Below are positions 1,339-19,420 of a stretch of 22,181 nucleotides of DNA, piece after piece. Positions within the stretch are counted from its first letter, which is position 1; the number at the start of each line of letters is the position of its first letter. Where the stretch lies: positions 1 through 22,181 of the IMG/VR virus record IMGVR_UViG_3300003789_000021; one strand, 5' to 3'. Position numbers and translations under genes: made by a program. This DNA is from a virus. The notes beneath the pieces were generated by a model. That model was not told the origin of the DNA, ran no database searches, and worked only from the letters and a program-made list of their open reading frames with translations.

Positions 1339-2291
1339 TAGAGCAAGCAGTCACAGTTACCCCAAATGAAATAGTTATACTAGGACAGTTCTTTATACAC
1401 AAAGACTACAGCGTCACACGTAAAGATATCCTGCTGGACATCCTGGCAAAACAATATTCTGGTCAGCAGATTACAATCCGTTTGCTAGATGGAGAGAACA
1501 CAGGCTTTAGCGGGTTCGAATCGTTTATGACGTATGCGTGTGATACACTTAATATTCCATACAGTAACGTAACATTTGAATCACACTCCGCTGACATAAA
1601 AAACTTTAATCTAACACAATTAAAACTTGGTATCTTTATCAGTGTTGCACAGTATTTGCCCCGGGAGTTCAATCGAGATTTAACCAATGCACGTTTTGTT
1701 GGTTGCTTGTTGGGTCGCTATAACCTAAGTCGATTTCGTTTAGCGTATGAACTAGATCAAACATTTGCCAATGATACATATATTACATTTCAACCTGATG
1801 TAAAATTTATCAATGATCAACTACGACATTTTGGCGTCGAATACCAACAAGAGCTGGCTTGGATAGCAACTAAACAATTTGATCGCGACTTAGTCAGTAC
1901 ACATCATATGGGTATGATCAATTGGTATGATGCTTGCCGTAGCTACGGAAATGTCTGGAACCGTTATCAAATTGAAGTTGTAAGTGAAACGGATAGTATG
2001 GATAACTTTTGGTTTACCGAAAAAACTGCCAATTGTCTAGCTACAGGTAAGCCTTTTGTCTTAGTCAGCGGTCAGGGGAGTCTGGCTCGTTTACGTGATA
2101 TGGGATTTCGAACATTTGATTCTGTACTAGATGAAACCTACGATCGAGAATCAAATCCATATGATCGTATTAAACACTTGACAGCTAGTCTACAAACCTT
2201 GTATACCAATCCAAGTAAAGCAGAGAAGCTACAAGAGCTGTATCGATTAGCTGGCCAGAATGTTGAGATCTATCAGCAATACTCTAAATAA
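1335..2291 (+). CDS. Glycosyltransferase-like protein, paralogue of the gene at the left edge
   Basis: The chosen start is the ATG at 1335, which overlaps the preceding TGA as ATGA; an in-frame ATG nine codons upstream (1308) is the alternative. The product is 318 residues. Its C-terminal third has WFTEKTANCLATGKPFVLVSG, then L-x2-LRDMGF-x-TFDSVLDE-x-YD. The left-edge protein has the same order of motifs (SEKTFKPIIGMRPFFVYG, then LKDSGFDIF). The F-x-TEK block resembles the donor-binding end of GT10/exostosin-like glycosyltransferases. The N-terminal half has no motif I recognise. It converges tail to tail with the oxygenase gene on the other strand, overlapping it by 8 bp. Function is inferred from weak motif resemblance. 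Confidence 0.55.
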   Translation: MIEQAVTVTPNEIVILGQFFIHKDYSVTRKDILLDILAKQYSGQQITIRLLDGENTGFSGFESFMTYACDTLNIPYSNVTFESHSADIKNFNLTQLKLGIFISVAQYLPREFNRDLTNARFVGCLLGRYNLSRFRLAYELDQTFANDTYITFQPDVKFINDQLRHFGVEYQQELAWIATKQFDRDLVSTHHMGMINWYDACRSYGNVWNRYQIEVVSETDSMDNFWFTEKTANCLATGKPFVLVSGQGSLARLRDMGFRTFDSVLDETYDRESNPYDRIKHLTASLQTLYTNPSKAEKLQELYRLAGQNVEIYQQYSK

Positions 2292-3066
2292 TTTTTTGTG
2301 CTCTAAAGACAATTTTGATGCTTGGGGTATTGAGATCACTGGCAGCTGGTGTAGTTGAGTGTAAGCACCGTCCGTCGTAAATAACCAATCTTCCTGGTAC
2401 TGGACTTACTATTTGTCCTTGATCTAACCATCCTAACTTGTAATTTCGTTGTTGTTGATATGTGCCAGTGTTAAATTGTTGATGATCTTTAGTTACTCCC
2501 TCGGGGTCTTCAGGATAAAATTTTAATTCTCCAGCCCATGACGGATACCACTCAGTGTTTGCTACATATACCATAGTAACTGTTTTGTCATTATTCGATT
2601 CTAACGGTGTGTCTCGATGTGCATACCCTTCGTTGCCATGACCGGTATGTGAATTATAATTGGCATTTACATAAACACGCCAACCTAATTTCAACCCAGG
2701 GTCAGAGACCGGAGGTAAGTCAATTTCAGACCGCATACCCTCAGGAGTTCCAGTTATTTCAAATTGATTATTGAGTTGACTATTTAATTTTTTCCATAAC
2801 AAGTATATGGGCAGATGATTAGATTTTAAACTAAGTTCGTCAGTGGCAAGGGGAGCTCTTGATAATTTGGTTCTCCTACCAAAGGATTGATAAACCATCC
2901 AATCATTGGGATTTTTTGGACTATCGAGTGTAAAATTAAAATTTACCTGTTCTTCCCGTTCCCATGTTCCAAAGAATTGAAGGGTTTTTACATACTCCCA
3001 AATTTTGTTATGGTCTTCAACGGACAATAAATTGTCATAAATTTCAATGTTGTACGGGATATTCAT
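2284..3066 (-). CDS. 2-oxoglutarate/Fe(II)-dependent oxygenase
   Basis: This 260-residue protein has the double-stranded beta-helix iron ligands. H150-R-D152 in YAHRDTPLE forms the HxD motif, H236 in GRCLHSTTP is the distal histidine, and R255 in KIVFRAQ is the expected 2-oxoglutarate-binding arginine. It resembles prolyl-4-hydroxylase-type enzymes, which hydroxylate a protein side chain or small molecule. The start at 3066 is preferred over the in-frame ATG at 3120 because a late-promoter motif AATAAATA (3072-3079, minus strand) sits five bases upstream of it. It is alone on the minus strand between the glycan-type genes and gene 32. The substrate is unknown. Confidence 0.75.
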   Translation of the reverse strand: MNIPYNIEIYDNLLSVEDHNKIWEYVKTLQFFGTWEREEQVNFNFTLDSPKNPNDWMVYQSFGRRTKLSRAPLATDELSLKSNHLPIYLLWKKLNSQLNNQFEITGTPEGMRSEIDLPPVSDPGLKLGWRVYVNANYNSHTGHGNEGYAHRDTPLESNNDKTVTMVYVANTEWYPSWAGELKFYPEDPEGVTKDHQQFNTGTYQQQRNYKLGWLDQGQIVSPVPGRLVIYDGRCLHSTTPAASDLNTPSIKIVFRAQKII

Positions 3067-3071
3067 ACAGA

Positions 3072-3079
3072 TATTTATT
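3072..3079 (-). promoter_or_regulatory. T4-type late promoter motif for the oxygenase gene
   Basis: On the minus strand this reads AATAAATA, one base from the T4 late box TATAAATA, and lies five bases before the ATG at 3066. With T4 late spacing, transcription would start at the A of the ATG. Confidence 0.45.
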
Positions 3080-3102
3080 GGGCAAAATAATTTAAAAAAT
3101 AT

Positions 3103-3130
3103 TTGACAAGCTAAATACATTTGTTATACA
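3103..3130 (+). promoter_or_regulatory. Sigma-70-like promoter of gene 32
   Basis: TTGACA (3103-3108) and TATACA (3125-3130) are separated by 16 bases. A CTAAATA late-like motif (3111-3117) lies inside the spacer, so the site may serve both early and late transcription. The leader to the gene 32 ATG is about 60 bases. Confidence 0.65.
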
Positions 3131-3197: not shown

Positions 3198-4190
3198 ATG
3201 GCAACAACATTAGCAGAAATTCGTGCAAAGTTACAAGCATCAGAAGGCAACAAAGGCGGTAACAACAAACAATCAGGTGGCGACAACGCTATCTATCCAC
3301 ACTGGAACATCGCAGAAGGTTCCACAGCAAGAGTAAGATTCCTCCCAGACGCAAACACTAAGAACTCATTCTTTTGGGCTGAGCGTGCAATGATCAAATT
3401 GCCATTTGCTGGAGTTAAAGGACAATCAGATTCAAAACCAGTAGTAGTACAAGTTCCATGTATGGAAATGTATGGCGAAGCGTGCCCAGTATTAGCAGAA
3501 GTTCGTCCATGGTTTAAGGATCCAAGTCTAGAGGAAATGGGTCGTAAGTATTGGAAGAAGAAGTCATATGTATTCCAAGGCTTTGTGCGTGAAAATGCAT
3601 TAAGTGACGACAAGGCTCCAGCAAATCCAATCCGTCGCTTTACTATTAGCCCACAGATTTTTAATATTATCAAAGCGGCACTAATGGATCCAGAAATGGA
3701 AGAATTACCAACAGATTTCCAACGTGGCTTGGATTTCCAAATCATTAAAACAAGCAAGGGTGGTTACGCTGACTATTCAACATCAAAGTGGGCTCGTAAA
3801 GAATCTGCACTAACAGCAGAAGAACAAGCTGCAATTGATGAGCATGGCCTGTTTAATTTAAGCGATTTCCTTCCAAAGAAACCTAGCGAAACAGATCTTA
3901 AAGTAATCAAAGAAATGTTTGAAGCTAGTGTTGATGGTCAACCATACGATGCTGACAAATGGGGTGCCTACTACAAACCATATGGTTTGGACACTCCCAA
4001 TGCTGCCCCTAAAGCAGATGCCGCTGATGCACCAGCCCCAGTAGCAAGTGCTCCAGCAACAGCTAGTCCATTTGTTGCAGATGACGAACCAGACGAAGTA
4101 CCAGCACCAACTGCTCCAGTGACAGCTGAACCAGTTAAACAAAATGCTCAAGACATTTTGGCAATGATTCGCAATCGTCAAAAGCAGTAA
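3198..4190 (+). CDS. 32: Single-stranded DNA-binding protein, gp32-like
   Basis: The 330-residue product resembles phage T4-type gp32, which coats single-stranded DNA during replication, recombination and repair. Visible features are a short basic N-terminal segment (MATTLAEIRAKLQASEG) like the gp32 self-assembly domain, a flexible Gly/Asn-rich linker (residues 19-29), a core with the aromatic/basic stretch RKYWKKKSYVFQGFVR, and a low-complexity Pro/Ala/acidic C-terminal tail that ends in a short helix. Cys88 and Cys96 lie where T4 gp32 has its zinc site, but the full His-Cys3 set is not evident. AAAGGA lies just before the ATG. The gene has its own promoter (3103-3130) and is followed by a hairpin. 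uvsX downstream supports the assignment. Confidence 0.85.
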   Translation: MATTLAEIRAKLQASEGNKGGNNKQSGGDNAIYPHWNIAEGSTARVRFLPDANTKNSFFWAERAMIKLPFAGVKGQSDSKPVVVQVPCMEMYGEACPVLAEVRPWFKDPSLEEMGRKYWKKKSYVFQGFVRENALSDDKAPANPIRRFTISPQIFNIIKAALMDPEMEELPTDFQRGLDFQIIKTSKGGYADYSTSKWARKESALTAEEQAAIDEHGLFNLSDFLPKKPSETDLKVIKEMFEASVDGQPYDADKWGAYYKPYGLDTPNAAPKADAADAPAPVASAPATASPFVADDEPDEVPAPTAPVTAEPVKQNAQDILAMIRNRQKQ

Positions 4191-4212: not shown

Positions 4213-4238
4213 TAGTGGGGGAAGACGATCCCCCACTA
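4213..4238 (+). terminator. Hairpin after gene 32
   Basis: A perfect 10-bp stem, TAGTGGGGGA with TCCCCCACTA, closes a six-base loop. The 3' flank is only weakly T-rich (ACCTGTTTA), so it may attenuate transcription or protect the mRNA 3' end rather than act as a classical intrinsic terminator. Confidence 0.6.
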
Positions 4239-4245: not shown

Positions 4246-4860
4246 ATGCTATCTTATCTAGATCCGATCCTTTTCCCTGATGAAATTCTGGTAGTTGAAC
4301 TCGAACCGGGACGTTTTGTCTATCCTATCTATAAAAATGGTAGCAGTGGCTTGTTTGAAAAATCTCGTTCTGTAACGGGCTCAGAAGTCATTAAACATTT
4401 AAAAACTGTAGAAGTATTTGTTCGTGAACCATTTGAACGTTATGTTAGTGGAGTACAAACGTACTTACGATATAACCCACATCTTGATCGTGCAACAGCA
4501 TTGTCGATGATTGACGAATACTTATTTTTAAACAGACATTTTGCATTACAATTCCACTGGTTGGTAAATCTACAACGCTTTAATAGTAATATATGGATGA
4601 CATTCAAACCAATGACAGAACTTGATAATGACCTAGGTGAAATTTGGAATAGTTTGACACGTGACCAAACACTTGTGGACTATTTTAAAGACAACAGTAA
4701 ATTGCATTTTTATCTACGGTTAGATAAAGTCTTATACTACGAGTTCATGGGTCAGACTGTAACATTTAAAATGATATTAGCATATATCAAAAATACCTAT
4801 CCCGAACTGTATAAAGAAGTGATTGAAAGGAGTCAAGAACTATGCGCTGTCCTAGACTAG
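4246..4860 (+). CDS. Sulfotransferase-like protein
   Basis: The product has 204 residues. Near the N-terminus YPIYKNGSSGLFEKS matches the 5'-phosphosulfate loop of PAPS-dependent sulfotransferases (K-N-G-S-S/T). Further on FVREPFERYVSGV matches the 3'-phosphate-binding block, where R-x-P-x-x-R-x-x-S is typical. This suggests transfer of sulfate from PAPS to a hydroxyl of a glycan or other acceptor. It is shorter than many cellular sulfotransferases (about 250-350 residues), so it may be a minimal or divergent version. It is the first gene of the cassette and overlaps the following radical SAM gene by 19 bp, so the two are likely co-translated. The acceptor cannot be told from sequence. Confidence 0.65.
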   Translation: MLSYLDPILFPDEILVVELEPGRFVYPIYKNGSSGLFEKSRSVTGSEVIKHLKTVEVFVREPFERYVSGVQTYLRYNPHLDRATALSMIDEYLFLNRHFALQFHWLVNLQRFNSNIWMTFKPMTELDNDLGEIWNSLTRDQTLVDYFKDNSKLHFYLRLDKVLYYEFMGQTVTFKMILAYIKNTYPELYKEVIERSQELCAVLD

Positions 4861-5720
4861 ATCACTTTGTTCGATTTAATTCAAATGGAACTGTAAGTCG
4901 CTGTGGCCACATGGTCAATCCAGCACAGTTTGATACTCTGGAGCAAATGGATTCCAGTGTGTGGTTGCGTAAAATTAAAGAACAATTTGCTCAAGACCTT
5001 TGGCCAAGCGAATGCCGTCGTTGTGAAGAAGCCGAAGCAGACTCGCGAGACAGTATAAGAACATACGCATTGAAATTGGATCGAGCTGAGACAGGGAATT
5101 ATCTTCAGGTGGGCGGGGTATTAGATAATGTATGTAATGCTGCTTGTATGACATGTAGTCCTGAATGTAGCACGAGAATTGGTGCACTACACAGTCGGAC
5201 GTTTCCTATTGTAAACAATACCAATCGTTTTTGGGACTTGCCCCAAGAACGAATACTACATTTAGATATCAATGGTGGCGAACCCAGCTACAGTAAAAAC
5301 TACAAACAGTTGTTGGCCAATTTACCGCCCAACCTTAAAACACTTAGACTTAATACTAATTGTAACGTGGTATTGGAAGAATTAGTCAATATAGCTGAAC
5401 GAGGGATTGAAGTTACAGTCACCGTAAGTTGCGATGGTATTGGCCCAGTACATGAGTTTATGCGTTGGCCTATTACTTGGGATACCTTTTATAAAAATTT
5501 AATGCAATATAAAATTATGCCAGTTAAGTTAAACTTATGGACCACAGTCAGCATACTTAATGTCAACGACTTATCTAACATACAGGCATTTGCTCAAGAA
5601 CATGGAATTGAGCACAGCTTTGCATATCTCAGTGAACCGGCGGTATTGAATATCAATAATAAAGACACCGTCGCTGTTGATGCATATATACAACAACAAA
5701 AACAATTAAGAAGCATATGA
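4842..5720 (+). CDS. Radical SAM protein with N-terminal twitch domain (first of two)
   Basis: The radical SAM cluster motif CX3CX2C is C98-NAA-C102-MT-C105, and the SAM-contact motif GGEP is at 135-138. In front of this lies a half SPASM (twitch) iron-sulfur domain, with C3-x17-C21 and C58-x2-C61. The second radical SAM gene has the same Cys spacing, so both belong to the family with the twitch domain at the N-terminus. Such enzymes use a 5'-deoxyadenosyl radical to modify peptides, sugars or small molecules; the substrate here is unknown. At 292 residues it is about 100 shorter than its partner. AAAGGAG (4826-4832) precedes the ATG. The gene overlaps its upstream neighbour and shares ATGA with the next one. 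Confidence 0.85.
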   Translation: MRCPRLDHFVRFNSNGTVSRCGHMVNPAQFDTLEQMDSSVWLRKIKEQFAQDLWPSECRRCEEAEADSRDSIRTYALKLDRAETGNYLQVGGVLDNVCNAACMTCSPECSTRIGALHSRTFPIVNNTNRFWDLPQERILHLDINGGEPSYSKNYKQLLANLPPNLKTLRLNTNCNVVLEELVNIAERGIEVTVTVSCDGIGPVHEFMRWPITWDTFYKNLMQYKIMPVKLNLWTTVSILNVNDLSNIQAFAQEHGIEHSFAYLSEPAVLNINNKDTVAVDAYIQQQKQLRSI

Positions 5721-6190
5721 AACCATTTATTGAATTAGATTGTGAAAGTTTAAGTGTAATTTCGCAGGAAATACACAATTTTCTAAAAGAAAAAACTGAT
5801 ATTTTAGATACACTGATTCCTGGATGGCATTTTGTTGATAAAAATTTATTATTAGAACAAGCACCAGAACTATTAACATGGTTTAAACAACTAAAACTAA
5901 TTCCTCGGCACGCAGCTGTAACAGTAGTTATTGACAATAAAAGCCTTCCCTTGCACATTGACGAATTGCCTGTAATAGCAAAAGTCAACATACCAGTTAT
6001 AAATACCGCAGGCTGGGCAAATAGATGGTACGAAAATGATGTAATGATTGGGGAAGTGGTTGGTATGGAAAAACCAATTGTACTAAACTCTCAAATTCCC
6101 CATAGTGTTGTGCAAGTCAATGACATTGCGTTGCCACGTATCGTTGCCAGTTTTACCTTTCACAATGAACCCCTGGATCTATTAAAATGA
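5717..6190 (+). CDS. Small 2OG-Fe(II) oxygenase-like protein
   Basis: This 157-residue protein has a plausible facial triad and co-substrate residue: H80-I-D82 in LPLHIDELP, H129 in SQIPHSVV and R141 in PRIVASFTF. The order and spacing fit a short double-stranded beta-helix fold, as in aspartyl/asparaginyl beta-hydroxylase-like or phytanoyl-type enzymes. A non-enzymatic cupin is the alternative. Its start overlaps the radical SAM stop and its stop overlaps the dehydrogenase start, both as ATGA, so it is expressed in step with them. It probably acts on the same intermediate as its neighbours; this is inference. It shares little beyond the triad with the larger oxygenase at 2284-3066. Confidence 0.55.
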   Translation: MKPFIELDCESLSVISQEIHNFLKEKTDILDTLIPGWHFVDKNLLLEQAPELLTWFKQLKLIPRHAAVTVVIDNKSLPLHIDELPVIAKVNIPVINTAGWANRWYENDVMIGEVVGMEKPIVLNSQIPHSVVQVNDIALPRIVASFTFHNEPLDLLK

Positions 6191-6732
6191 AAATAGCTAT
6201 AACAGGACATACGGCCGGTATTGGTCAAGCACTTGCTAGAGAATATGAAAATCTTGGACACGAAATTGTCGGTTTGAGTAAACGAGATGGCTATAACATT
6301 CGTAGCATACCAAAAATTGCATCACTGATAGAACCTTGCGATCGTTTTGTTAACAATGCCCAAGCAGGCTTTGCTCAGACAGAATTGCTGTTTGAAATGG
6401 CTCGCCGATGGTCTGGAACAAACAAACATATCATGATTATCAGTACTATGATGACACAGGCTCCCTCATCACCCTTGCCTGGTTTAGATATGGACGAATA
6501 TCGTGTACAAAAAGTAGCACTCGAAGAAGCAGTTCGACAAATTCGTGCAAAATATATTGGTGTCAAACTTACTGTAGTACGTCCGGGTAATATAGCAACA
6601 AGTCCGGATAAAACGGTACCTCCGGCCGCTGACGTAACAGTCTGGGCCAATACACTGGTTAACATATTCAACATGGCCGCAACTAACAATTTGGTGATAC
6701 CAGACATATCCCTTGGACCAAAACACCAATGA
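6187..6732 (+). CDS. Short-chain dehydrogenase/reductase
   Basis: The 181-residue product starts with the Rossmann nucleotide-binding motif T6-G-H-T-A-G-I-G13, followed by N56-N57-A58 (the NNAG-type motif), Ser86 in MIISTMM, and the catalytic Y105-x3-K109. A PGN block (VVRPGNIATS) after the active site is also typical. It is shorter than classical SDRs (about 250 residues), with little left of the substrate-binding C-terminus. An NAD(P)-dependent oxidation or reduction of a hydroxyl/keto group is expected, probably as one step of the cassette pathway. ATGA overlaps join it to both neighbours. Confidence 0.8.
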   Translation: MKIAITGHTAGIGQALAREYENLGHEIVGLSKRDGYNIRSIPKIASLIEPCDRFVNNAQAGFAQTELLFEMARRWSGTNKHIMIISTMMTQAPSSPLPGLDMDEYRVQKVALEEAVRQIRAKYIGVKLTVVRPGNIATSPDKTVPPAADVTVWANTLVNIFNMAATNNLVIPDISLGPKHQ

Positions 6733-7901
6733 CACCTAAAGATATTTTAACTAATCCGTATTTTTGTCCCATGCCATGGACTGGAATGATGTACAACTTT
6801 GATGGATCAGTAAAAAATTGTATACGTAGCAATGATGCTATGCCAATCGGTAATCTACAAAACAACAACATACAAGAAATATTGGGCGGAGTAGAAAATA
6901 GAAATAGACAGATTGCTATACAGCAACGTCAGCCAGTCAAATCCTGTACTGGCTGTTACGATTTAGAAAAAGATCGACGCGGATTTGATGGTATTAGTGA
7001 TCGCGTTTTTTACATACGTGAACTCAAAGAAAACGACCCATCAATATACTCTAGTGTAGGACGTCCAGGCCTACAAGCAATTGATATACGTTGGACCAAT
7101 CTGTGTAATTTTGCCTGTGTCTATTGTGGACCAGATTTTAGCAGTCGATGGGCCGATGAACTACAGATGCATTTAGCAACACCCACTAAAGAACAAATTG
7201 ATAGTCTCAAGTGGTATATTACTAGTCAAGCTAACACACTAAAACACGTGTATCTTGCTGGTGGCGAGCCCTTGCTAATGAAAGAAAATTTAGAACTATT
7301 GGATATTTTAAAAACTGTAAACCCCAATGTAAATCTAAGAATTAACACAAATTTAAGCAAGGTCGATACTCGAGTATTTGATAAAATTTGCGAGTTTAAA
7401 AATGTTCATTGGACCATTAGTGCAGAAACCACTGGAGATGAATTTGAATACATTAGATATGGCGGAAAATGGACAGACTTCCTGGATAATTTAAATACAA
7501 TTCGAAAACTAAATCATAAAATATCATTCAACATGCTTTGGTTTATACTAAATTTTAATTCCATTTTTGACTGTGTGGACTATTTAACTGGTATAGGATT
7601 CCATAACAACAGTTTTATTATTGGAGCATTAGCAATGCCAGACTACCTAAACATTAGACATTTACCAGAAAGTGTGTTATACTCACTAGAAGAAAAATTG
7701 AATAATCGTATTGCAAAAAAACCAGGATTTTTGCTTGAAGAAAGCTATAAAAATATGTTAAACTATATCAAACAACCAATTGAAAAGAATTTTCTAAGGT
7801 CAATGACACAGTTAAACGAGTTAGACCAACGACGCAATTTAGACAGCAGTAAAATTTTTAAAGAGTTATATAATATCAAGGAAAACTATCATGGCAAATA
7901 A
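6729..7901 (+). CDS. Radical SAM protein with N-terminal twitch domain (second of two)
   Basis: This 390-residue protein carries an N-terminal twitch domain (C13-x17-C31 in FCPMPWTGMMYN...NCIRS, then C73-x2-C76) followed by the radical SAM core with C126-NFA-C130-VY-C133 and the GGEPLL motif at 168-173. It matches the known type of twitch domain-containing radical SAM proteins that place the auxiliary cluster before the barrel. It is a divergent paralogue of the protein at 4842-5720 and has a longer C-terminal helical part. The substrate is unknown. Its start overlaps the dehydrogenase as ATGA and its end overlaps uvsX by 11 bp, so the cassette feeds directly into the recombination operon. 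Confidence 0.85.
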   Translation: MTPKDILTNPYFCPMPWTGMMYNFDGSVKNCIRSNDAMPIGNLQNNNIQEILGGVENRNRQIAIQQRQPVKSCTGCYDLEKDRRGFDGISDRVFYIRELKENDPSIYSSVGRPGLQAIDIRWTNLCNFACVYCGPDFSSRWADELQMHLATPTKEQIDSLKWYITSQANTLKHVYLAGGEPLLMKENLELLDILKTVNPNVNLRINTNLSKVDTRVFDKICEFKNVHWTISAETTGDEFEYIRYGGKWTDFLDNLNTIRKLNHKISFNMLWFILNFNSIFDCVDYLTGIGFHNNSFIIGALAMPDYLNIRHLPESVLYSLEEKLNNRIAKKPGFLLEESYKNMLNYIKQPIEKNFLRSMTQLNELDQRRNLDSSKIFKELYNIKENYHGK

Positions 7902-8964
7902 ACCATTCGACGTATCAAAATTTCGCAAGAGCATTACTAAAAGCATTGACGGTATCTCTGTAGGATTTCGTGATCCTGACACATGGATCTCAACTAACAA
8001 CTATGCACTAAACTATCTTATCTCTGGTGACTTCCATAAAGGAATCCCGATGGGTAAAGTTACTGTGTTTGCTGGCGAATCTGGTGCAGGTAAATCGTTT
8101 ATCTGTTCGGGTAATATTGTTAAGAATGCACAAGAGCAAGGCATTTATGTTATTCTAGTTGATACAGAAAACGCACTCGATGAAGCATGGTTGCACGCAC
8201 TAGGTGTAGATACTAGTGAAGACAAGTTGCTTAAACTTAACGTAGCTATGATTGATGATGTAGCAAAATTGATCAATGACTTTGTTAAAGAATATAAAAC
8301 ACTACCAGAAGATCAACGTCCTAAGGTCTTATTTGTACTCGACTCCCTAGGTATGATGTTGACCCCAACAGACGTTAATCAGTTTGAAGCAGGTGACCTC
8401 AAAGGTGATATGGGTCGTAAGCCCAAAGCACTGACAGCACTAGTTCGTAACTGTGTAAACATGTTTGGCGACCTAAACATTGGACTAGTATGTACAAATC
8501 ATACCTACGCTAGCCAAGACATGTTTGATCCAGATGATAAAATCTCAGGCGGCCAAGGCTTCATCTATGCTAGCTCTATTGTAGTTGCTATGCGTAAGTT
8601 AAAGTTAAAAGAAGACGAAGATGGTAATAAGATTTCAGAAGTTAAAGGTATTCGTGCTGCATGTAAGATTATGAAGACTCGTTATGCTAAACCATTTGAA
8701 TCAGTACAGGTTAAGATTCCGTATGAACAAGGGATGAATCCTTACTCTGGATTAGTAGATCTAATGGAAGGCAAAGGTTTATTAACCAAAGACGGTAATA
8801 GTCTTAAATACACTCTAGCTGATGGTACTATTATTAAACAGTTCCGTAAGGCATGGGAACGCAACGAAGACGGCACATTAGATAAAGTTATGGTTGACTT
8901 TGCTGCGAACCCACATAGAACTGCTACACCTGTAGCAGAACCAGAAGAGGAAGTTACAGAATGA
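7891..8964 (+). CDS. uvsX: UvsX, RecA-like recombinase
   Basis: The 357-residue product is a RecA/RAD51-fold strand-exchange protein. Walker A is G62-E-S-G-A-G-K68-S69, Walker B is VLFVLD (146-151), and DTENALDE (91-98) holds a candidate catalytic Glu. The loop region FDPDDKISGGQG and an acidic C-terminal tail (EPEEEVTE) fit phage UvsX. It forms filaments on single-stranded DNA and drives recombination-dependent replication and repair with gp32 and UvsY. AAGGAA lies a few bases before the ATG. It is followed by an ATGA-overlapping small acidic gene and then a UvsY-like candidate. Confidence 0.92.
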   Translation: MANKPFDVSKFRKSITKSIDGISVGFRDPDTWISTNNYALNYLISGDFHKGIPMGKVTVFAGESGAGKSFICSGNIVKNAQEQGIYVILVDTENALDEAWLHALGVDTSEDKLLKLNVAMIDDVAKLINDFVKEYKTLPEDQRPKVLFVLDSLGMMLTPTDVNQFEAGDLKGDMGRKPKALTALVRNCVNMFGDLNIGLVCTNHTYASQDMFDPDDKISGGQGFIYASSIVVAMRKLKLKEDEDGNKISEVKGIRAACKIMKTRYAKPFESVQVKIPYEQGMNPYSGLVDLMEGKGLLTKDGNSLKYTLADGTIIKQFRKAWERNEDGTLDKVMVDFAANPHRTATPVAEPEEEVTE

Positions 8965-12801: not shown

Positions 12802-12889
12802 GGGCCGGACGCCGTATTGGTTGCAGGCAGTCGACTCATAATCGACCAGCGAAAGCTCATTGTGGGTTCAAGTCCCTCCCGGCCCACCA
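12802..12889 (+). tRNA. tRNA with anticodon CAT and a long variable arm
   Basis: Acceptor GGGCCGG/CCGGCCC, anticodon stem GTCGA/TCGAC with loop CTCATAA, T-loop TTCAAGT, discriminator A and encoded CCA. The 15-base variable region forms AGC-GAAA-GCT, a class II arm. Bacterial class II tRNAs are Leu, Ser and Tyr, while CAT normally belongs to Met or Ile2, so the amino acid is uncertain. Confidence 0.85.
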
Positions 12890-12913
12890 AATTTGTAGTA
12901 TAAGTAAAGTATT

Positions 12914-12998
12914 GCCCCGATGGTGGAATTGGTAGACACGCTGGTCTTAGAAGCCAGTATCGTAAGGTGTGCGAGTTCGAGTCTCGCTTGGGGCACCA
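12914..12998 (+). tRNA. tRNA-Leu (TAG)
   Basis: GCCCCGA acceptor with TTGGGGC, anticodon loop CTTAGAA, class II variable arm, T-loop TTCGAGT, discriminator A and encoded CCA. Confidence 0.95.
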
Positions 12999-13016
12999 AA
13001 TTTAGAAACTCTTCTC

Positions 13017-14150
13017 ATGATAATCCAAAACAATAATAACTATGGTCATTACGAGGTAGGTGGCACAGTCTATACCAACAAACTTGAAGCACTTCAATTT
13101 GCATCTAAGACTGGTAATCCCGTAGTTTTTAATTTTTATGATGAAGTATTTTCTACCTGTAATTGGACTAAACGTCCCGCAGGAACTTTGCAAGAATTAT
13201 ATAAATTAAGAGCACAGCAACTTCGAGACACCTACGATTATATTGTGATAAACTTTAGTGGCGGCAGTGATTCCTGGACTACTCTTTATAGTTTTTTATC
13301 AAATGGCATTCATGTAGATGAAGTATACACACGTTGGCCTTTAGCACAGAAAAAATATACTCCGGCTAACCCAACTGATTTTAGCAATATAAATCACAGC
13401 AGTGAGTACGACTATGCAGTACTACCGGTCTTAGAAGACGTTGCCAAAAGATTTCCCAATACACGTATTTGTATTGATGATTATTCTGAAGAATACGAAC
13501 ATGATTTTAACGAAGAAAAGTTAAAAAAGGGCGGACACTATCTAAGCATGGGATCCTTTTTTAGATACAGTAGAAAAAGTGAATGGGAGTGTGAAGCAGT
13601 AAGGCAAGGAAAATCTGTAGGCGTCATCTATGGTTTTGAAAAAACTATGTGCCACATCAAAGACGGTAATTTTTATTCGTACTTTGTTGATAGAATTGGA
13701 CCTGCAGATCCTGATCCAGAACGTATTAGCGAAGCTTTCTTTTGGTCTCCACAGATGCCCGAGCTTGCTATAGCCCAAGCACACGAACTAAAGCACTACT
13801 ACGAAACAACAGCCAACGCAGATGAAATGGCTTTGATAACTCAAGAAATAACTAGGGGTCATAGCGTTCCTCGTGATACATATATTCGAGTTTGTTACCC
13901 GGAGTATAACATACACACTTTTCAAACAGATAAGTTTTCGGGTTCGATCATGCAAGAAGTTGACTTCTGGGTTGTACGCTACAATAGAAGATTCTTCGAC
14001 GGCTGGCGCTGGCATATTAAACAAAGTTTAACGTCGGTTGATCGAAGCTTGTTAGACTACAAACATGGGGTAATGGTAGGGCTAAGCCCTTTAAACACTA
14101 GACTCTACTGTTTGGGCAAATTTAACAAAAAAGATATCTATATTGGTTGA
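13017..14150 (+). CDS. PP-loop ATP pyrophosphatase-like protein (copy 1)
   Basis: The start is the ATG 18 bases after tRNA-Leu; a longer frame into the tRNA is rejected. The 377-residue product has the PP-loop S81-GGSD-S86 (family SGGxDS), in YDYIVINFSGGSDSWTTLY. Members adenylate or thiolate substrates: tRNA-modifying TilS, TtcA and MnmA, DndC, QueC, or asparagine and NAD synthetases. The partner at 20813-22096 shares LYKLRAQQLRD-x-YDY before the loop, GKSVGVIYGFEK, and F-WSP-x-x-x-ELA-x-QAH. I cannot assign the substrate. Its position inside a tRNA transcription unit suggests a tRNA-related role. There is no ribosome-binding site that I can see. Confidence 0.8.
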   Translation: MIIQNNNNYGHYEVGGTVYTNKLEALQFASKTGNPVVFNFYDEVFSTCNWTKRPAGTLQELYKLRAQQLRDTYDYIVINFSGGSDSWTTLYSFLSNGIHVDEVYTRWPLAQKKYTPANPTDFSNINHSSEYDYAVLPVLEDVAKRFPNTRICIDDYSEEYEHDFNEEKLKKGGHYLSMGSFFRYSRKSEWECEAVRQGKSVGVIYGFEKTMCHIKDGNFYSYFVDRIGPADPDPERISEAFFWSPQMPELAIAQAHELKHYYETTANADEMALITQEITRGHSVPRDTYIRVCYPEYNIHTFQTDKFSGSIMQEVDFWVVRYNRRFFDGWRWHIKQSLTSVDRSLLDYKHGVMVGLSPLNTRLYCLGKFNKKDIYIG

Positions 14151-14175
14151 CATAAAAAGATAAATAAACTATAAT
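14147..14175 (+). promoter_or_regulatory. Consensus sigma-70 promoter with embedded late box
   Basis: TTGACA (14147-14152) and TATAAT (14170-14175) are separated by exactly 17 bases, a perfect consensus. GATAAATA (14159-14166), a late-type box, lies in the spacer. It starts a short unit that ends at the terminator 14341-14374. Confidence 0.85.
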
Positions 14176-14184
14176 ACTTAAATT

Positions 14185-14307
14185 ATGAGAACGAACACTT
14201 TTAATCATTCCGCAAAATTACAGCCAACATTAGGCGGGTTAGCCTATTGGTCAGCAGTATGCCCAATGATTAATAGCGAACGCGATTACGTTGAGGGTTT
14301 TAATTAG
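14185..14307 (+). CDS. 40-residue ORF or small RNA in a self-contained unit
   Basis: An ATG at 14185 opens a 40-codon frame (MRTNTFNHSAKLQPTLGG... ending RDYVEGFN). It has no ribosome-binding site, and the expected transcription start (about 14182) is three bases before the ATG, so it would be almost leaderless. Alternatively the 190-base transcript is a small regulatory RNA and the frame is incidental. The consensus promoter in front and intrinsic terminator behind show that this unit is expressed separately. I do not recognise the peptide. Confidence 0.4.
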   Translation: MRTNTFNHSAKLQPTLGGLAYWSAVCPMINSERDYVEGFN

Positions 14308-14340
14308 AGTATATATTTTTACACCATATTTTAATTAAAG

Positions 14341-14374
14341 CCCTGGAATTAAACACTCCGGGGTTTTTTATTTT
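14341..14374 (+). terminator. Intrinsic terminator of the short unit
   Basis: CCCTGGA (14341-14347) pairs with TCCGGGG (14357-14363) with one G-T pair, followed by TTTTTTATTTT. The preceding AAA could pair with the T run for use from the other side. Confidence 0.8.
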
Positions 14375-14387
14375 TAGGAGAAGGAAA

Positions 14388-14558
14388 ATGGAACATAAGA
14401 ACGAAAAACGAAACGTATCACACTTTGTCCTCTCACACGAAGAAAAAGTTGCACTAATGGAAGCAAAGGTAGCAAGAGCAGAAGCTCAAGTCAAAGCATT
14501 AGCAGAAGCCGCGAAGTTACAGGAGTCTGCAAGGGGGTCGAAATACTCCTCACGCTGA
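14388..14558 (+). CDS. Small helical protein, 56 residues
   Basis: A strong AGGAG/AAGGA sequence precedes the ATG at 14388. The frame gives 56 residues, MEHKNEKRNVSHFVLSHEEK... followed by an Ala/Glu/Lys-rich amphipathic helix (residues 18-46) and a basic end. No family is recognised. It lies directly after the terminator at 14341-14374, so it needs readthrough or its own promoter. The good ribosome-binding site is the main reason to accept it. Confidence 0.6.
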   Translation: MEHKNEKRNVSHFVLSHEEKVALMEAKVARAEAQVKALAEAAKLQESARGSKYSSR

Positions 14559-14816
14559 TAAGTGGATTGAGGTTATGAAGATGACTGGTACGTTTTTTGG
14601 CCAGACTATCTTTGATCGGCAGTAAAGTGGTATAGGGAACGAGATCCTTGCTACACTATAAACAGCTAAATGGGCGGACTGTGGGATGGAGCACCTTGTG
14701 TGGTGTAAAAAATTACAGGCTGGGGTATAGCCCTAGCATATCCTTTCGAAAGAGAGGGTATTCTAAAGTATACTAGATGACGAGCGGGTAAACGTCCATT
14801 CGGGTTACCACCCCAC
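14559..14816 (+). other. Gene-free, strongly structured region
   Basis: I see no convincing frame here. A 10-bp hairpin with a GAAA tetraloop spans 14738-14761 (ATATCCTTTC/GAGAGGGTAT). GGTAA/TTACC closes a hairpin near 14785-14810, and CACC-TTGTGT-GGTG is nearby. The stretch may be part of a non-coding RNA or a long leader for the tRNA-Tyr block. Confidence 0.45.
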
Positions 14817-14845
14817 TTGACACGGGGCATATATACTAGTATACT
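14817..14845 (+). promoter_or_regulatory. Sigma-70-like promoter for the tRNA-Tyr block
   Basis: TTGACA (14817-14822) and TATACT (14840-14845) are 17 bases apart. The start point would be near 14852, a few bases before tRNA-Tyr. Confidence 0.8.
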
Positions 14846-14857
14846 TTACAATACACA

Positions 14858-14941
14858 GGAGCAGAAGCATCAACGGTGATGCAGTGGACTGTAAATCCGC
14901 CGTCTTTGACATGCCTGGTTCGATCCCAGGATGCTCCACCA
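14858..14941 (+). tRNA. tRNA-Tyr (GTA)
   Basis: GGAGCA pairs with TGCTCC (position 7-66 is G-A), anticodon loop CTGTAAA, class II variable arm, T-loop TTCGATC, discriminator A, encoded CCA. Confidence 0.92.
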
Positions 14942-14950
14942 AGTTTCAAA

Positions 14951-15026
14951 GCGGGAATAGCTCAGCTGGTAGAGCGATACCTTGCCAAGGTATAGGTCGG
15001 GAGTTCGAACCTCCTTTCCCGCTCCA
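14951..15026 (+). tRNA. tRNA-Gly (GCC)
   Basis: GCGGGAA/TTCCCGC acceptor, anticodon loop TTGCCAA, T-loop TTCGAAC, discriminator T, encoded CCA. Confidence 0.96.
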
Positions 15027-15031
15027 CGTAT

Positions 15032-15105
15032 GACTCTCTGGTATAATGGCATTACATCGGTCTCCAAAACCGCAGATCGGGGTTCGATTCCCTGGAGGGT
15101 CGCCA
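15032..15105 (+). tRNA. tRNA-Trp (CCA)
   Basis: GACTCTC/GAGGGTC acceptor, anticodon loop CTCCAAA, T-loop TTCGATT, discriminator G, encoded CCA. The AACAAT spacer follows. Confidence 0.93.
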
Positions 15106-15111
15106 AACAAT

Positions 15112-15185
15112 GCGGGATTCGTATAATGGTATTACTCCAGCCTTCCAAGCTGAGAACGAGGGTTCGATTCCCTTATCCCGCTCCA
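15112..15185 (+). tRNA. tRNA-Gly (TCC)
   Basis: GCGGGAT/ATCCCGC acceptor, anticodon loop CTTCCAA, T-loop TTCGATT, discriminator T, encoded CCA. Confidence 0.95.
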
Positions 15186-15197
15186 TGTTTATTATGG

Positions 15198-15226
15198 TTG
15201 TCCTTTAATTGCCAAAATGCTATACT
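15198..15226 (+). promoter_or_regulatory. Promoter of the large structured RNA
   Basis: TTGTCC (15198-15203) and TATACT (15221-15226) are 17 bases apart. No reading frame follows; the expected start near 15233 opens directly into the hairpin-rich stretch. Confidence 0.6.
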
Positions 15227-15232
15227 ATTGTT

Positions 15233-15741
15233 TTAGTAGTTAAAGTTCATTAACAATTTAAGTAGAATATTAGCACCCCGGGAGGGGTTACTATATTGAA
15301 GCATACTTAGGCCGGAGTTGATCAAAGGTTCCACGGGTGGGCTACGCCGTATGGTGCGTAGGTAGTGTGTTTCAATATGGTTTGAGAGTAGATCGGGAGG
15401 GAGGTTATGTCTAGTCAACATGTACCCCAAACAGAATCGCTTGAGTCTGACAATATATGAAATGCGTGTGCTATTGACGATAGCGGGCATGAAAAAGACG
15501 ATAAGACACCATACACATAAACATTCCAACAACAAACGGTAAGAGCAAATTAAAATTCCGTTGAGTTGCTGAGAGGTCAATGTATTTGCTCTCCGATACC
15601 TCCGAGTGTTTAGTTGTATGGTAAGTTATTACCATTTTGTTTACGGGCGTTGTTAAAATTGGCTTACGGTAAGACCTGTTAAGGCTTCATAATTGACTAC
15701 TTAGTCAAGCCGTCTTGGTTCAACTCCAAGAGCGTCCACCA
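15233..15741 (+). ncRNA. Candidate large structured RNA
   Basis: More than 500 bases without a credible gene carry many independent hairpins. CCCC-GGGA-GGGG, a GNRA-capped stem, lies near 15275-15287. CTACGC pairs with GCGTAG near 15342-15361, and GCTAT-TGACG-ATAGC lies near 15471-15485. A perfect 9-bp long-range stem AGAGCAAAT/ATTTGCTCT spans about 15542-15594. ATGGTAA-GTTA-TTACCAT occupies 15618-15635. The unit starts at a promoter and ends in a tRNA-like domain with CCA. Large phage RNAs such as GOLLD and ROOL are known beside phage tRNA genes, so membership or analogy is plausible. I could not run a covariance model. Confidence 0.55.
15645..15741 (+). other. tRNA-like domain at the 3' end of the structured RNA
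   Basis: GGGCGTT (15645-15651) pairs over seven positions with AGCGTCC (15731-15737), followed by A and CCA. A normal T arm CTTGG-TTCAACT-CCAAG precedes the acceptor 3' strand. No standard D arm or anticodon arm can be drawn. Instead there is a TTGAC-TACTTA-GTCAA hairpin, and GGCTT pairs with AAGCC. A degenerate tRNA or a tmRNA-like fold are alternatives. Confidence 0.5.
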
Positions 15742-15752
15742 AACTCGGTTAC

Positions 15753-15890
15753 AGTGGCGACTGTATTGAATAGTGTGTAAGCACTAGCCGCGTCGAGCAT
15801 TCTCGATCTGCTGAGAAGTAAGTGGGAATCAAGTCCGGAAGGCAACCGCGGACCTAGGCACTAAAAACGCCCTAGGCAACAGGTTCCCAT
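15753..15890 (+). ncRNA. Second structured element with a three-way junction
   Basis: There is no reading frame. ACAGT-GGCG-ACTGT and TCGAG-CATT-CTCGA form small hairpins. TGGGAA pairs with TTCCCA to enclose two hairpins, GTCCG...CGGAC and CCTAGG...CCTAGG, near 15821-15890. It may be the 3' part of the preceding RNA or a separate one. Confidence 0.45.
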
Positions 15891-15894
15891 AAAT

Positions 15895-15922
15895 TATAAA
15901 TAACAGGTTAGAATGATAAATA
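15895..15922 (+). promoter_or_regulatory. Two late promoter boxes before the HNH gene
   Basis: TATAAATA (15895-15902) is the exact T4 late box; GATAAATA (15915-15922) is a second. Both lead toward the HNH endonuclease ATG at 15943. Confidence 0.6.
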
Positions 15923-15942
15923 GATATAAGGAGAACTAACCT

Positions 15943-16377
15943 ATGCCTATTGCAACCTGTTTATGCTGTAAAAATGATTTTAGATGGATGCCATCACAAA
16001 AATCTGGAAAATATTGTAGTATTGCTTGCCAAAAAAAACATTCTCTAAATGAAAAAATAGAGAGTGGTGTATATACAAGAGCAAATGCTTATACGTATTT
16101 TAAGAAAAATACAGAATATAAGTGTGTTGAATGTGATAATAACGGAACTCATAAAGGAAAACCTTTAAGTTTGCAGATTGATCACATTGATGGCAACAAT
16201 ACTAACAATGTAGTTGAGAATTTAAGATATCTTTGTCCTAACTGTCATTCCCAAACAGATACTTGGGGTGTAAAAAATGTTAGTGAGGAAGGTAGAAAAA
16301 GATTAAAGGCCGCGGCAAAGTTGGGTAATGCTATACGCACTGGTCGTATGCCTAAAGGTAGTAAATTGGTCCTATAG
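15943..16377 (+). CDS. HNH endonuclease with N-terminal zinc finger
   Basis: The 144-residue protein has an N-terminal zinc-binding segment (C6-x2-C9, C25-x3-C29) and then an HNH nuclease domain. The latter has C61-x2-C64, D80-H81 in LQIDHIDGNNTNN, N93 in ENLRYL, and C98-x2-C101-H102. The four Cys of the HNH part probably bind structural zinc and the His/Asn residues bind the catalytic metal. Free-standing HNH proteins of this kind in T4-like phages are usually homing endonucleases. AAGGAG lies about ten bases before the ATG, behind two late boxes. The 3' end runs into tRNA-Asp by ten bases. It has no RuvC part, so it is not IscB or Cas9-like. Confidence 0.85.
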   Translation: MPIATCLCCKNDFRWMPSQKSGKYCSIACQKKHSLNEKIESGVYTRANAYTYFKKNTEYKCVECDNNGTHKGKPLSLQIDHIDGNNTNNVVENLRYLCPNCHSQTDTWGVKNVSEEGRKRLKAAAKLGNAIRTGRMPKGSKLVL

Positions 16378-16442
16378 TATATCGGTTAGTATTCCTCACT
16401 GTCACTGAGGAGAGACCGGTTCGATTCCGGTTGGGACCGCCA
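16368..16442 (+). tRNA. tRNA-Asp (GTC)
   Basis: GGTCCTA/TGGGACC acceptor, anticodon loop CTGTCAC, T-loop TTCGATT, discriminator G, encoded CCA. Its first ten bases are also the last codons of the HNH gene. Confidence 0.95.
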
Positions 16443-16446
16443 ATTT

Positions 16447-16522
16447 GCTCTGTTCGTCTAGAGGCCTAGGACACCGCCCTTTCACGGCGGGTACACGAGT
16501 TCGAATCTCGTACAGAGCGCCA
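16447..16522 (+). tRNA. tRNA-Glu (TTC)
   Basis: GCTCTGT/ACAGAGC acceptor, anticodon loop CTTTCAC, T-loop TTCGAAT, discriminator G, encoded CCA. Confidence 0.95.
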
Positions 16523-16529
16523 ATACAAT

Positions 16530-16605
16530 TCCCTGATAGCTCAGTTGGTAGAGCACGTGACTGTTAATCACGGTGTCGCTGGTTCGAGCCCAGCTCGGGG
16601 AGCCA
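16530..16605 (+). tRNA. tRNA-Asn (GTT)
   Basis: TCCCTGA/TCGGGGA acceptor, anticodon loop CTGTTAA, T-loop TTCGAGC, discriminator G, encoded CCA. Confidence 0.95.
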
Positions 16606-16625
16606 AAACAAAAAAAGGAGGCATT

Positions 16626-17084
16626 ATGCCGTGGATTGAAAATGTAGCGGCTAGTGATGTTTCAACAAAGTTTCATCATGATGCTGGCGAGAATAGTATG
16701 CTGATCAGTATTGTTGATCCAGCAAGTTGGCGTCCTACTCCTGTACACAAATTCAAAGAAATACATAACTTTGAATTTTTAGATGTAGAAGAAAAGGACG
16801 AAGTTTTAGATGAAGCAATGAAGTGTAGTCATGAAGATGCGGCACGACTTGTGGCTCTATTACAACATGCGTTAGACAATCGTATGAACGTAGTTGTACA
16901 TTGTTTTGCAGGTATTTGTCGTAGCGGTGCAGTTTGTGAAGTTGGAGTTATGATGGGCTTTGATGATACAGAACGTTTTCGTAGCCCTAATCTTTTAGTA
17001 AAGCACCGTATGATGAAGGCGTTGGGTTGGACTTATGATGAAAATGAAAAGCCCAACATTGACGATTGGCGTAATTTTAAATAA
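16626..17084 (+). CDS. Protein tyrosine / dual-specificity phosphatase-like protein
   Basis: The start at 16626 is fixed by AAAGGAGG a few bases upstream. The 152-residue product has the phosphatase signature H92-C93-F-A-G-I-C-R99-S100 (HCx5RS), with Cys93 as nucleophile and Arg99 binding phosphate. The size fits a minimal dual-specificity phosphatase. It may dephosphorylate a host protein or a small phosphorylated compound; the sequence does not say which. It sits between tRNA-Asn and a phosphoesterase gene that has the same type of strong ribosome-binding site 14 bases downstream, so the two form a small operon. Confidence 0.8.
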   Translation: MPWIENVAASDVSTKFHHDAGENSMLISIVDPASWRPTPVHKFKEIHNFEFLDVEEKDEVLDEAMKCSHEDAARLVALLQHALDNRMNVVVHCFAGICRSGAVCEVGVMMGFDDTERFRSPNLLVKHRMMKALGWTYDENEKPNIDDWRNFK

Positions 17085-17098
17085 GAAAGGAGGCGAGT

Positions 17099-17686
17099 AT
17101 GCCAGCAGTATTTTTAGTATCAGACACGCATTTTGGACACGCAGGTGTATGTCGCTTCACTCGCAACGATGGTGTTACACCGCTTCGTCCCTGGGATGAT
17201 GCCGCAGAGATGGATGAAGCCATGGTTCGAGCATGGAACGAACGAGTTCGACCAAATGATAAAGTTTATCACCTAGGTGATGTGGTTATCAATCGCAGGG
17301 CACTACCTATCTTGAATAGACTTAACGGTGACAAAGTTCTTATCCGCGGTAATCACGATATCTTTAAAGATGAGGACTATACGCCTTACTTTAGAAGTTT
17401 ACGAGGATATCATGTCATGAATGGACTTATCCTGTCGCACATTCCAGTCCATCCAGAAAGTCTTGGAAGATTTGGCACGAATGTCCATGGCCACCTCCAT
17501 GCTAATCGTGTTATGCGACCATTAGCAACAAGCGGACGCACAGATGTAATCGATGTTCGCTATCATTGCGTATGCGTAGAGCAGACACCAGACTTCGCTC
17601 CGATCCTCTTCGAAGATGTATTAAAGAGGATTAAAGATGAGGGAGGAACGATTGGGTTTAGGAATGGGAATGGGCCGGCCATGTAG
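17099..17686 (+). CDS. Calcineurin-like metallophosphoesterase
   Basis: The 195-residue protein has all metal-binding motifs of the family: D9-x-H11 in SDTHFGH, G60-D61, G84-N85-H86-D87, H114 in SHIPVHPE, and H130-G-H132-L-H134. Such enzymes hydrolyse phosphodiesters or phosphomonoesters with two metal ions; the substrate is unknown. AAAGGAGG precedes the ATG. The last 29 bp overlap, tail to tail, with the homing endonuclease gene on the other strand. Its C-terminus EGGTIGFRNGNGPAM recurs almost unchanged as a fossil at 19002-19049. Confidence 0.9.
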   Translation: MPAVFLVSDTHFGHAGVCRFTRNDGVTPLRPWDDAAEMDEAMVRAWNERVRPNDKVYHLGDVVINRRALPILNRLNGDKVLIRGNHDIFKDEDYTPYFRSLRGYHVMNGLILSHIPVHPESLGRFGTNVHGHLHANRVMRPLATSGRTDVIDVRYHCVCVEQTPDFAPILFEDVLKRIKDEGGTIGFRNGNGPAM

Positions 17687-18407: not shown

Positions 18408-18469
18408 TGCTGATCGCTCCTTTGTTGCGTTAGAGTAGTTGGGTGTTCCACCACCGCGAACTACACTTT

Positions 18470-18477
18470 TATTTATC
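18470..18477 (-). promoter_or_regulatory. Late promoter box for the homing endonuclease
   Basis: On the minus strand this reads GATAAATA, giving a leader of about 60 bases with a good ribosome-binding site before the ATG at 18407. Confidence 0.5.
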
Positions 18478-18509
18478 ATCTATCCACGGACACACGCACT
18501 TTTTAGGAC

Positions 18510-18543
18510 TTGACAAATAGAATATCTTATGTTAAACTAAATA
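18510..18543 (+). promoter_or_regulatory. Sigma-70-like promoter plus late box before gene 18549
   Basis: TTGACA (18510-18515) and TAAACT (18533-18538) are 17 bases apart, and the late box ACTAAATA (18536-18543) overlaps the -10. The ATG follows five bases after the late box. Confidence 0.5.
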
Positions 18544-18548
18544 TTATT

Positions 18549-18923: not shown

Positions 18924-19001
18924 TCACCATCTAACAGCGTCATCCAAACTCAACCACTTTGGAGACTTCTTCTGGCAGGATAGAACAGCGTCAGACAGGC
19001 C

Positions 19002-19049
19002 GAAGGTGGTGTAGTGGGATTCAGGAACGGCAACGGTCCTGCAATGTAA
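19002..19049 (+). pseudogene. Fossil 3' end of a second phosphoesterase gene
   Basis: These codons read EGGVVGFRNGNGPAM and stop, against EGGTIGFRNGNGPAM and stop in the intact gene (17639-17686). Most synonymous positions differ. In frame upstream there is a stop near 18982, so only the tail survives. Confidence 0.75.
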
Positions 19050-19056
19050 CAGGCTT

Positions 19057-19085
19057 TGCCGGCTTGAGCCAATCAACCGGCACCA
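19057..19085 (+). other. CCA-ended minihelix, possible tRNA remnant
   Basis: TGCCGG pairs with CCGGCA around a 14-base loop and runs into CCA. It sits just before tRNA-Ile and may be a tRNA that lost its inner arms, or a chance hairpin. Confidence 0.35.
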
Positions 19086-19089
19086 ATCA

Positions 19090-19166: not shown

Positions 19167-19172
19167 AACAAT

Positions 19173-19250: not shown

Positions 19251-19253
19251 AAT

Positions 19254-19330: not shown

Positions 19331-19340
19331 AATGAATTAT

Positions 19341-19416: not shown

Positions 19417-19420
19417 AATT

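Follow-up and report, generated by a model that had tools for sequence, protein, structure and literature searches.

We analyzed a stretch of viral DNA of 22,181 nucleotides (positions 1 to 22,181 of the IMG/VR record IMGVR_UViG_3300003789_000021; hereafter, the window), in which a cassette of enzyme genes separates the gene for a gp32-like single-strand DNA-binding protein from that for the UvsX recombinase. An earlier note on this DNA, made from the sequence alone, had described five genes with overlapping starts at this place. They were indeed present at 4246–7901, all on the plus strand, and three of the four internal junctions (rS1/P3, P3/SDR, and SDR/rS2) were ATGA overlaps. The ST/rS1 overlap is 19 nt long, and that between rS2 and uvsX is 11 nt. 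The features of the locus are as follows.

3198–4190, plus strand: gp32-like single-strand DNA-binding protein (phrog_1192, 2.2e-67); upstream flank, outside the cassette
4213–4238, plus strand: hairpin AGTGGGGG...CCCCCACT, RNA fold of −18.3 kcal/mol, just 3′ of gp32 and 5′ of the cassette
4246–4860, plus strand: ST, 3′-phosphoadenosine-5′-phosphosulfate (PAPS)-sulfotransferase-like protein of 204 aa, module 1 (weak PF03567 match, AlphaFold2 (AF2) fold, and residues)
4842–5720, plus strand: rS1, N-terminal-twitch radical S-adenosylmethionine (SAM) enzyme, module 1 (NF033640, 7e-38, below cut-off)
5717–6190, plus strand: P3, predicted 2-oxoglutarate (2OG)/Fe(II) oxygenase-fold protein, optional, module 2 (AF2 fold and HxD...H...R)
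6187–6732, plus strand: SDR, short NAD(P)-dependent short-chain dehydrogenase of 181 aa, module 2 (PF01370, 2.2e-8)
6729–7901, plus strand: rS2, N-terminal-twitch radical SAM enzyme, module 2 (NF033640, 2.5e-72; Radical_SAM; SPASM)
7891–8964, plus strand: uvsX recombinase (phrog_97, UvsX-like, 1.2e-68); downstream flank, outside the cassette

Cassette loci were gathered by scanning viral contigs with rS2, P3, and ST, which gave 87 distinct loci spanning gp32 to uvsX. As observed, 85 of the 87 carried ST-rS1-[P3]-SDR-rS2 in this order and the overlaps recurred too, indicating more than a chance arrangement. P3 was recognized in 41 of the 87 and is therefore optional. Thus, the idea of one coupled unit held, but not its five-gene composition: the constant set is four genes (ST, rS1, SDR, and rS2) in two modules, ST-rS1 and [P3]-SDR-rS2. 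The exceptions were module-sized, which supports this two-module structure. Two loci (L142 and L153) kept ST-rS1 without full SDR and rS2, and in one (L021), which kept SDR-rS2, a different radical SAM protein took the place of rS1 and no ST was recognizable. We also looked for relatives with scattered genes, which the earlier note had named as the finding that would speak against a unit; the genes were instead ordered in those 85 loci and clustered in a second lineage described below.

As scans with rS2, P3, and ST select for the cassette, an independent scan was conducted with uvsX alone. The best 80 of at least 600 matches contained 71 complete intervals, of which 8 held the whole cassette, 62 held none of it, and one (L172) held an ST-like gene only. 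In a uvsX tree of 110 rows, which include cassette-selected loci, cassette presence changed 19 times by parsimony, and at least 13 of these changes were forced by supported branches. The cassette has thus repeatedly come and gone, almost always in full.

The pairwise distance matrices of the cassette genes correlated weakly (0.09–0.48), the best correlated pair being SDR and rS2 (0.48), which are adjacent in almost all loci. A test of co-divergence thus did not reveal joint descent of the cassette genes; recombination was seen instead, indicating that the genes recombine within the cassette while its slots stay filled. The mosaic cassette of L137, identical to the window in gp32 and ST (100%) and 86% identical in rS1, 53% in SDR, and 51% in rS2, likewise indicates recombination inside the unit.

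The window uvsX is 61–70% identical to that of jumbo phages, such as Pectobacterium phage CBB, Cronobacter phage GAP32, and Agrobacterium phage Atu_ph07. In CBB, Atu_ph07, and Vibrio phage 2.275.O, the gene at the gp32 position lies at most ~75 nt from uvsX, so that, compared with these phages, the window has the cassette inserted between two adjoining genes. Elsewhere, cassette-free intervals contained other radical SAM proteins, proteins of unknown family, or nothing; by eye, SDR and glycosyltransferase-like proteins and an amidinotransferase-like protein were also present. The gp32-uvsX interval is an insertion site for many unrelated genes, often of the tailoring type. The fillings varied from locus to locus (L162, L175, L176, L194–L196, L197, and L224, among others), with tailoring-type enzymes often among them, and proteins of ~270–300 aa of unknown function recurred.

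A single hit from cellular genomes, L238, led to viral contigs with orthologues of the cassette genes, which belong to a second T4-like lineage. There, the order was P3-SDR-rS2-ST-rS1, so the two modules are swapped; in some of these loci, P3 lay on the opposite strand or rS2 was missing. In a tree built by a quick method, second-lineage rS1 joined jumbo-phage rS1 (support 100), and second-lineage rS2 joined jumbo-phage rS2 (98). Three second-lineage genomes (G010, G011, and G012) had an empty gp32-uvsX gap of 62–175 nt, with the cassette 25–45 kb away. Simple hitchhiking with gp32 or uvsX was therefore excluded, since this lineage holds the genes elsewhere and in another order. L238 itself (NZJL01000003.1), a contig of 10 kb assigned to a Porticoccaceae metagenome-assembled genome, is probably phage DNA; besides the cassette in swapped order, it carries three more radical SAM genes. 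In the second lineage only, a conserved basic protein of 55–68 aa (MGIHYDYK..., with C-terminal LTLDMITDP) is encoded closely 5′ of a third radical SAM gene, and may be a leader or a regulator.

L239, 6110–6286: conserved 55–68 aa protein, with equivalents in L238, L241, L245–L247, and L250–L255

These arrangements bear on two readings of the locus. In one, there is no shared pathway, and unrelated auxiliary genes piled up where insertions occur, and homology of the flanks moves them jointly. The variability of the gp32-uvsX interval and the recombination seen in the distance correlations (0.09–0.48) would suit it. However, the same orthologues are clustered in another order and place in the second lineage, the slots are filled despite recombination, and presence is near all-or-none, so this account is largely refuted and can hardly be maintained. 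The other reading takes the surrounding DNA-metabolism genes, pointed out in the earlier note, as a clue to the substrate. This clue proved uninformative: the location says nothing on the substrate, because unrelated tailoring-type genes insert between gp32 and uvsX and the second lineage keeps the cassette elsewhere. The insertion-site evidence thus weakens a link to DNA metabolism drawn from location.

Co-occurrence was then analyzed in 13 phage records (nine cassette-positive and four negative) comprising 374 reciprocal-best-hit families. Exactly two families, SDR and ST, were present in 9/9 positive and 0/4 negative records, while the rS1 family was present in all nine positives, and one paralogue from the negatives was grouped with it. 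Searches of 18 records with profiles agreed with this result, presence being near all-or-none. Because the nine positives were picked for the cassette, its own presence in them is by construction, and the informative result is that no other family followed it. No co-inherited partner or precursor peptide of at least 45 aa was found among the 374 families, which fits a substrate encoded outside the cassette. The search for a precursor peptide likewise yielded no cassette-specific candidate; the 76-aa protein o8961 was present in 99/99 positive loci but also in 48/65 negative loci. A diffusible product not attached to the virion, either a small metabolite or a host-takeover compound derived from a host precursor, would agree with the absence of a co-inherited macromolecular acceptor from this comparison and with a toolkit resembling secondary-metabolite tailoring. 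Nevertheless, no transporter, carrier protein, or activating ligase was co-inherited with the cassette in the same 13 records, and we regard such a product as quite unlikely.

Next, the enzyme assignments were analyzed. The types named in the earlier note (a sulfotransferase, two radical SAM enzymes, a 2OG oxygenase, and a dehydrogenase) were essentially right, as judged by families, folds, and residues. To our knowledge, no member of NF033640 (N_Twi_rSAM) has a proven reaction. rS2 is a member of this family, scoring 244 bits (E = 2.5e-72) against a curated cut-off of 170, and it also matches Pfam Radical_SAM and SPASM. rS1, shorter and more divergent, scored 131 bits (E = 7e-38), under the 170-bit cut-off, and is thus a relative rather than a member, with NF033640 matching 40/40 relatives at E ≤ 1e-3. 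The two form separate clades, and the other sampled phage twitch radical SAM proteins fall outside both. Among 106 sequences of each, the CxxxCxxC motif (C98/C102/C105) and the twitch cysteines (C3/C21/C58/C61) of rS1 had a frequency of 1.00, as did the motif of rS2 (C126/C130/C133), whose twitch cysteines (C13/C31/C73/C76) were at 0.98–1.00. All of these cysteines were invariant in the second-lineage orthologues checked. Each twitch domain thus has four conserved N-terminal Cys residues, a pattern that would fit a fully ligated auxiliary cluster. The twitch enzyme BtrN of the butirosin pathway, which conducts a two-electron oxidation of an aminocyclitol alcohol, ligates its auxiliary cluster fully by four Cys, whereas that of MoaA, which acts on GTP, has an open site (PMC9012708). 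The four-Cys pattern of rS1 and rS2 would match BtrN, which likewise has one twitch domain, rather than MoaA. However, the twitch domain is N-terminal here and C-terminal in BtrN, and the sequence similarity is generic.

P3 gave no convincing sequence family in family searches. Its AF2 model (predicted local distance difference test score, pLDDT, 97.2) is a confident double-stranded beta-helix, which Foldseek matched to PHD2 (1.5e-4) and AspH, and VIA to 7v4m (Z 11.6) and AlkB (Z 11.3), with Z up to 11.6 and a root-mean-square deviation (rmsd) of 2.9 over 138 residues. The residues H80xD82...H129...R141, that is, the HxD...H motif and the 2OG-binding Arg, were conserved at 0.98–1.00 in 43 sequences. 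With the beta-helix, the motif, and the Arg all present, P3 is predicted with confidence to have the 2OG/Fe(II) oxygenase fold. SDR matched Pfam Epimerase (PF01370) over the cut-off at 2.2e-8, and its TGxxxGIG, NNA, and Y105xxxK109 motifs were intact (frequency 0.96–1.00), identifying it as a short-chain dehydrogenase/reductase.

We know of no sulfated phage base, which counts against modification of a nucleic acid or nucleotide, such as phage DNA hypermodification or modification of tRNA. For such a role speak the position of the cassette among replication and recombination genes in the window lineage, the P3 fold, which is also that of AlkB and of a hydroxylase from a nucleoside-antibiotic pathway, and the action of MoaA on GTP (PMC9012708). 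However, the cassette lies 25–45 kb from a directly adjoining gp32-uvsX pair in G010–G012, and that site takes many unrelated insertions, leaving a nucleic acid substrate improbable.

ST had the least certain of the five assignments. Its model (pLDDT 89.9) suggested a sulfotransferase-like P-loop fold, and the 27 best VIA matches were PAPS sulfotransferases, led by the heparan-sulfate 3-O-sulfotransferases; the best was 3-OST-5 (Z 6.5, rmsd 4.7 over 147 residues). The glycan type matched somewhat better than tyrosylprotein sulfotransferases (Z 6.5 vs 3.7). In 101 sequences, K30, R60, R65, H98, and Q102 had a frequency of 1.00 and S68 was kept at 90% or more; K30, R60, R65, and S68 are the presumed PAPS-motif residues. 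ST resembles the heparan-sulfate 3-O-sulfotransferases and PF03567 in its predicted fold and in conserved, putative PAPS-motif residues, and differs in having only 204 aa, in falling below the Pfam cut-off, and in giving no sequence match in a profile search of the PDB. A PF03567 match at E ≤ 0.01 was obtained for one of 55 relatives. Together, the model and its residues suggest a sulfotransferase-like protein. A phage-encoded PAPS supply was considered and rejected, because an adenosine-5′-phosphosulfate kinase model matched only 3/12 cassette-positive records, all partially; host PAPS is therefore assumed as the sulfate source. The function of phage sulfotransferases has been called unclear (PMC10580990).

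The unit, its modularity, its repeated gain and loss, the predicted folds, and the conserved catalytic residues were computed, and from them we infer each reaction, the order of the steps, the substrate, and what the phage gains. We tentatively propose, at close to even confidence, a horizontally exchanged and virus-specific tailoring cassette whose two modules act on one shared substrate, most likely a sugar or glycan. The unit itself is well supported. The substrate would be made during infection and could be a sugar nucleotide or a glycan of the virion or the cell surface. One of the twitch radical SAM enzymes would abstract a hydrogen from a carbinol of the substrate, leading to a BtrN-like two-electron oxidation with a fully cysteine-ligated auxiliary cluster. 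SDR would then reduce the ketone, giving an inverted or deoxygenated center; P3, where present, would add a hydroxyl; and ST would transfer sulfate from host PAPS onto a hydroxyl. The second step has a parallel in the apramycin pathway, where the radical SAM dehydratase AprD4 and the NADPH-dependent reductase AprD3 deoxygenate a pseudodisaccharide (PMC5461906); by analogy, the neighbors SDR and rS2 would be the corresponding reductase and radical SAM enzyme here. A sugar or glycan was judged most likely because ST is most like glycan O-sulfotransferases, because of the BtrN and AprD4/AprD3 parallels, and because other tailoring genes lie around: the gp32-uvsX fillings and tailoring islands include radical SAM, SDR, glycosyltransferase-like (by eye), and carbamoyltransferase genes. 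Among sugar, peptide, and nucleoside, the substrates suggested in the earlier note, sugar would thus be the best supported.

Alternatively, the product could be a modified peptide or protein, similar to a ribosomally synthesized and post-translationally modified peptide. The twitch enzymes would then act on a ribosomal peptide or on a phage or host protein, which P3 would hydroxylate and ST would sulfate, for example on Tyr. Many SPASM/twitch radical SAM enzymes mature peptides, the closest solved radical SAM sequences to rS1 and rS2 include the sactipeptide maturase SkfB, and P3 matches the peptide hydroxylases PHD2 and AspH. However, no dedicated precursor family of at least 45 aa was present in 9/9 positive and 0 negative records, o8961 occurred in negative loci as well, the 55–68 aa protein was confined to the second lineage, and ST was closer to glycan than to tyrosylprotein sulfotransferases. 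A peptide substrate is therefore unlikely, although it deserves consideration.

Several observations weigh against the proposed sugar-tailoring pathway. ST matched PF03567 (Sulfotransfer_2) at E = 0.036 and 14.6 bits, below the Pfam gathering cut-off of 22, and its fold match was modest (Z at most 6.5; Foldseek E = 0.34), so its use of PAPS is suggested by motifs and fold. The structural matches of P3, namely a nucleoside hydroxylase, AlkB, PHD2, and AspH, do not discriminate between substrates. Auxiliary clusters with four Cys are also known from peptide-modifying enzymes. No strictly co-inherited glycosyltransferase was found in the co-occurrence comparison. Most cassette loci came from cassette queries, and the uvsX-only scan holds only 8 complete cassettes.

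The cassette occurs in many uncultured phages from aquatic settings. Among 50,697 cultured phage records, neither the cassette nor any match to ST or rS1 was found; rS2 reached at best 26% identity over 45% in two Vibrio phages, and SDR gave a partial match of 33% in one Pantoea phage. Scanning cellular genomes with rS2 gave no match and with rS1 only L238, and an rS1 profile run against 369 genomes of the class of L238 detected nothing beyond it. NF033640 had strong matches in 3/398 sampled Pseudomonadota genomes, one of them that of L238. As a separate observation, a single phage record had up to 16 NF033640 matches. In the literature searched, with most subscription journals and preprints outside that search, the combination was not described, in agreement with the earlier note, which knew of no described phage pathway with this set. 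The components are known superfamilies; their fixed assembly turned up in none of these cultured phages, clearly cellular loci, or papers. Aquatic T4-like phages rich in radical SAM genes have been reported, such as the environmental phage TARA_ERS488813_N000010 with 12 of them (PMC5332604), and share this richness with the phages here; the parts of that report available to us give gene counts and describe no conserved ST-rS1-SDR-rS2 unit. The cassette very probably specifies a chemical tailoring pathway not described before. That this pathway is of viral origin with no cellular counterpart seen, its two twitch radical SAM enzymes, SDR, and ST building a sulfated, radical-modified moiety (sugar or peptide), is possible, with the balance tilting against it. 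Such a moiety would be repeatedly gained and lost by T4-like aquatic phages, perhaps in surface or immunity conflicts.

Radical SAM and sulfotransferase genes whose use is unknown are numerous in aquatic phages, and the cassette singles out one fixed enzyme set among them. A vague list of auxiliary genes thereby becomes a pathway of four or five genes, few enough to be reconstituted, for which nature supplies two gene orders, versions reduced to a single module, and close relatives that carry or lack the cassette. If the product were a sulfated, radical-modified glycan, it would represent a new viral surface chemistry.

Further features of these phages were also observed. Cassette-bearing records longer than 140 kb contained 9–16 twitch radical SAM (NF033640) matches each; G013, without the cassette, contained 13, indicating that this richness is not cassette-specific. 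Twitch radical SAM arrays with glycosyltransferase-like, SGNH-like, and carbamoyltransferase genes were found in L275 and L277 (G001 and G002) and in L278 (G013). The tandem arrays of G001 and G002 lie downstream of likely tail-fiber genes; in one record, a carbamoyltransferase gene is close by. Hairpins comparable to that at 4213–4238 were found 3′ of gp32 in many relatives with or without the cassette, and this element is not cassette-specific; in the window, it stops just short of the ST start codon and lacks a T-run. A separate 2OG-Fe(II) oxygenase gene, present in few relatives, lies just upstream of gp32 at 2284–3120 on the minus strand. Farther downstream, at 12802–20810, 21 tRNA genes lie amid genes for an HNH endonuclease, a dual-specificity-phosphatase-like protein, a metallophosphoesterase, and a DUF2061 membrane protein. 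The tRNA region is flanked by genes for two large proteins that look alike, at 12969–14150 (plus strand) and 20813–22120 (minus strand); both carry a PP-loop-like motif (SGGSDS/SGGADS) and gave no Pfam match.

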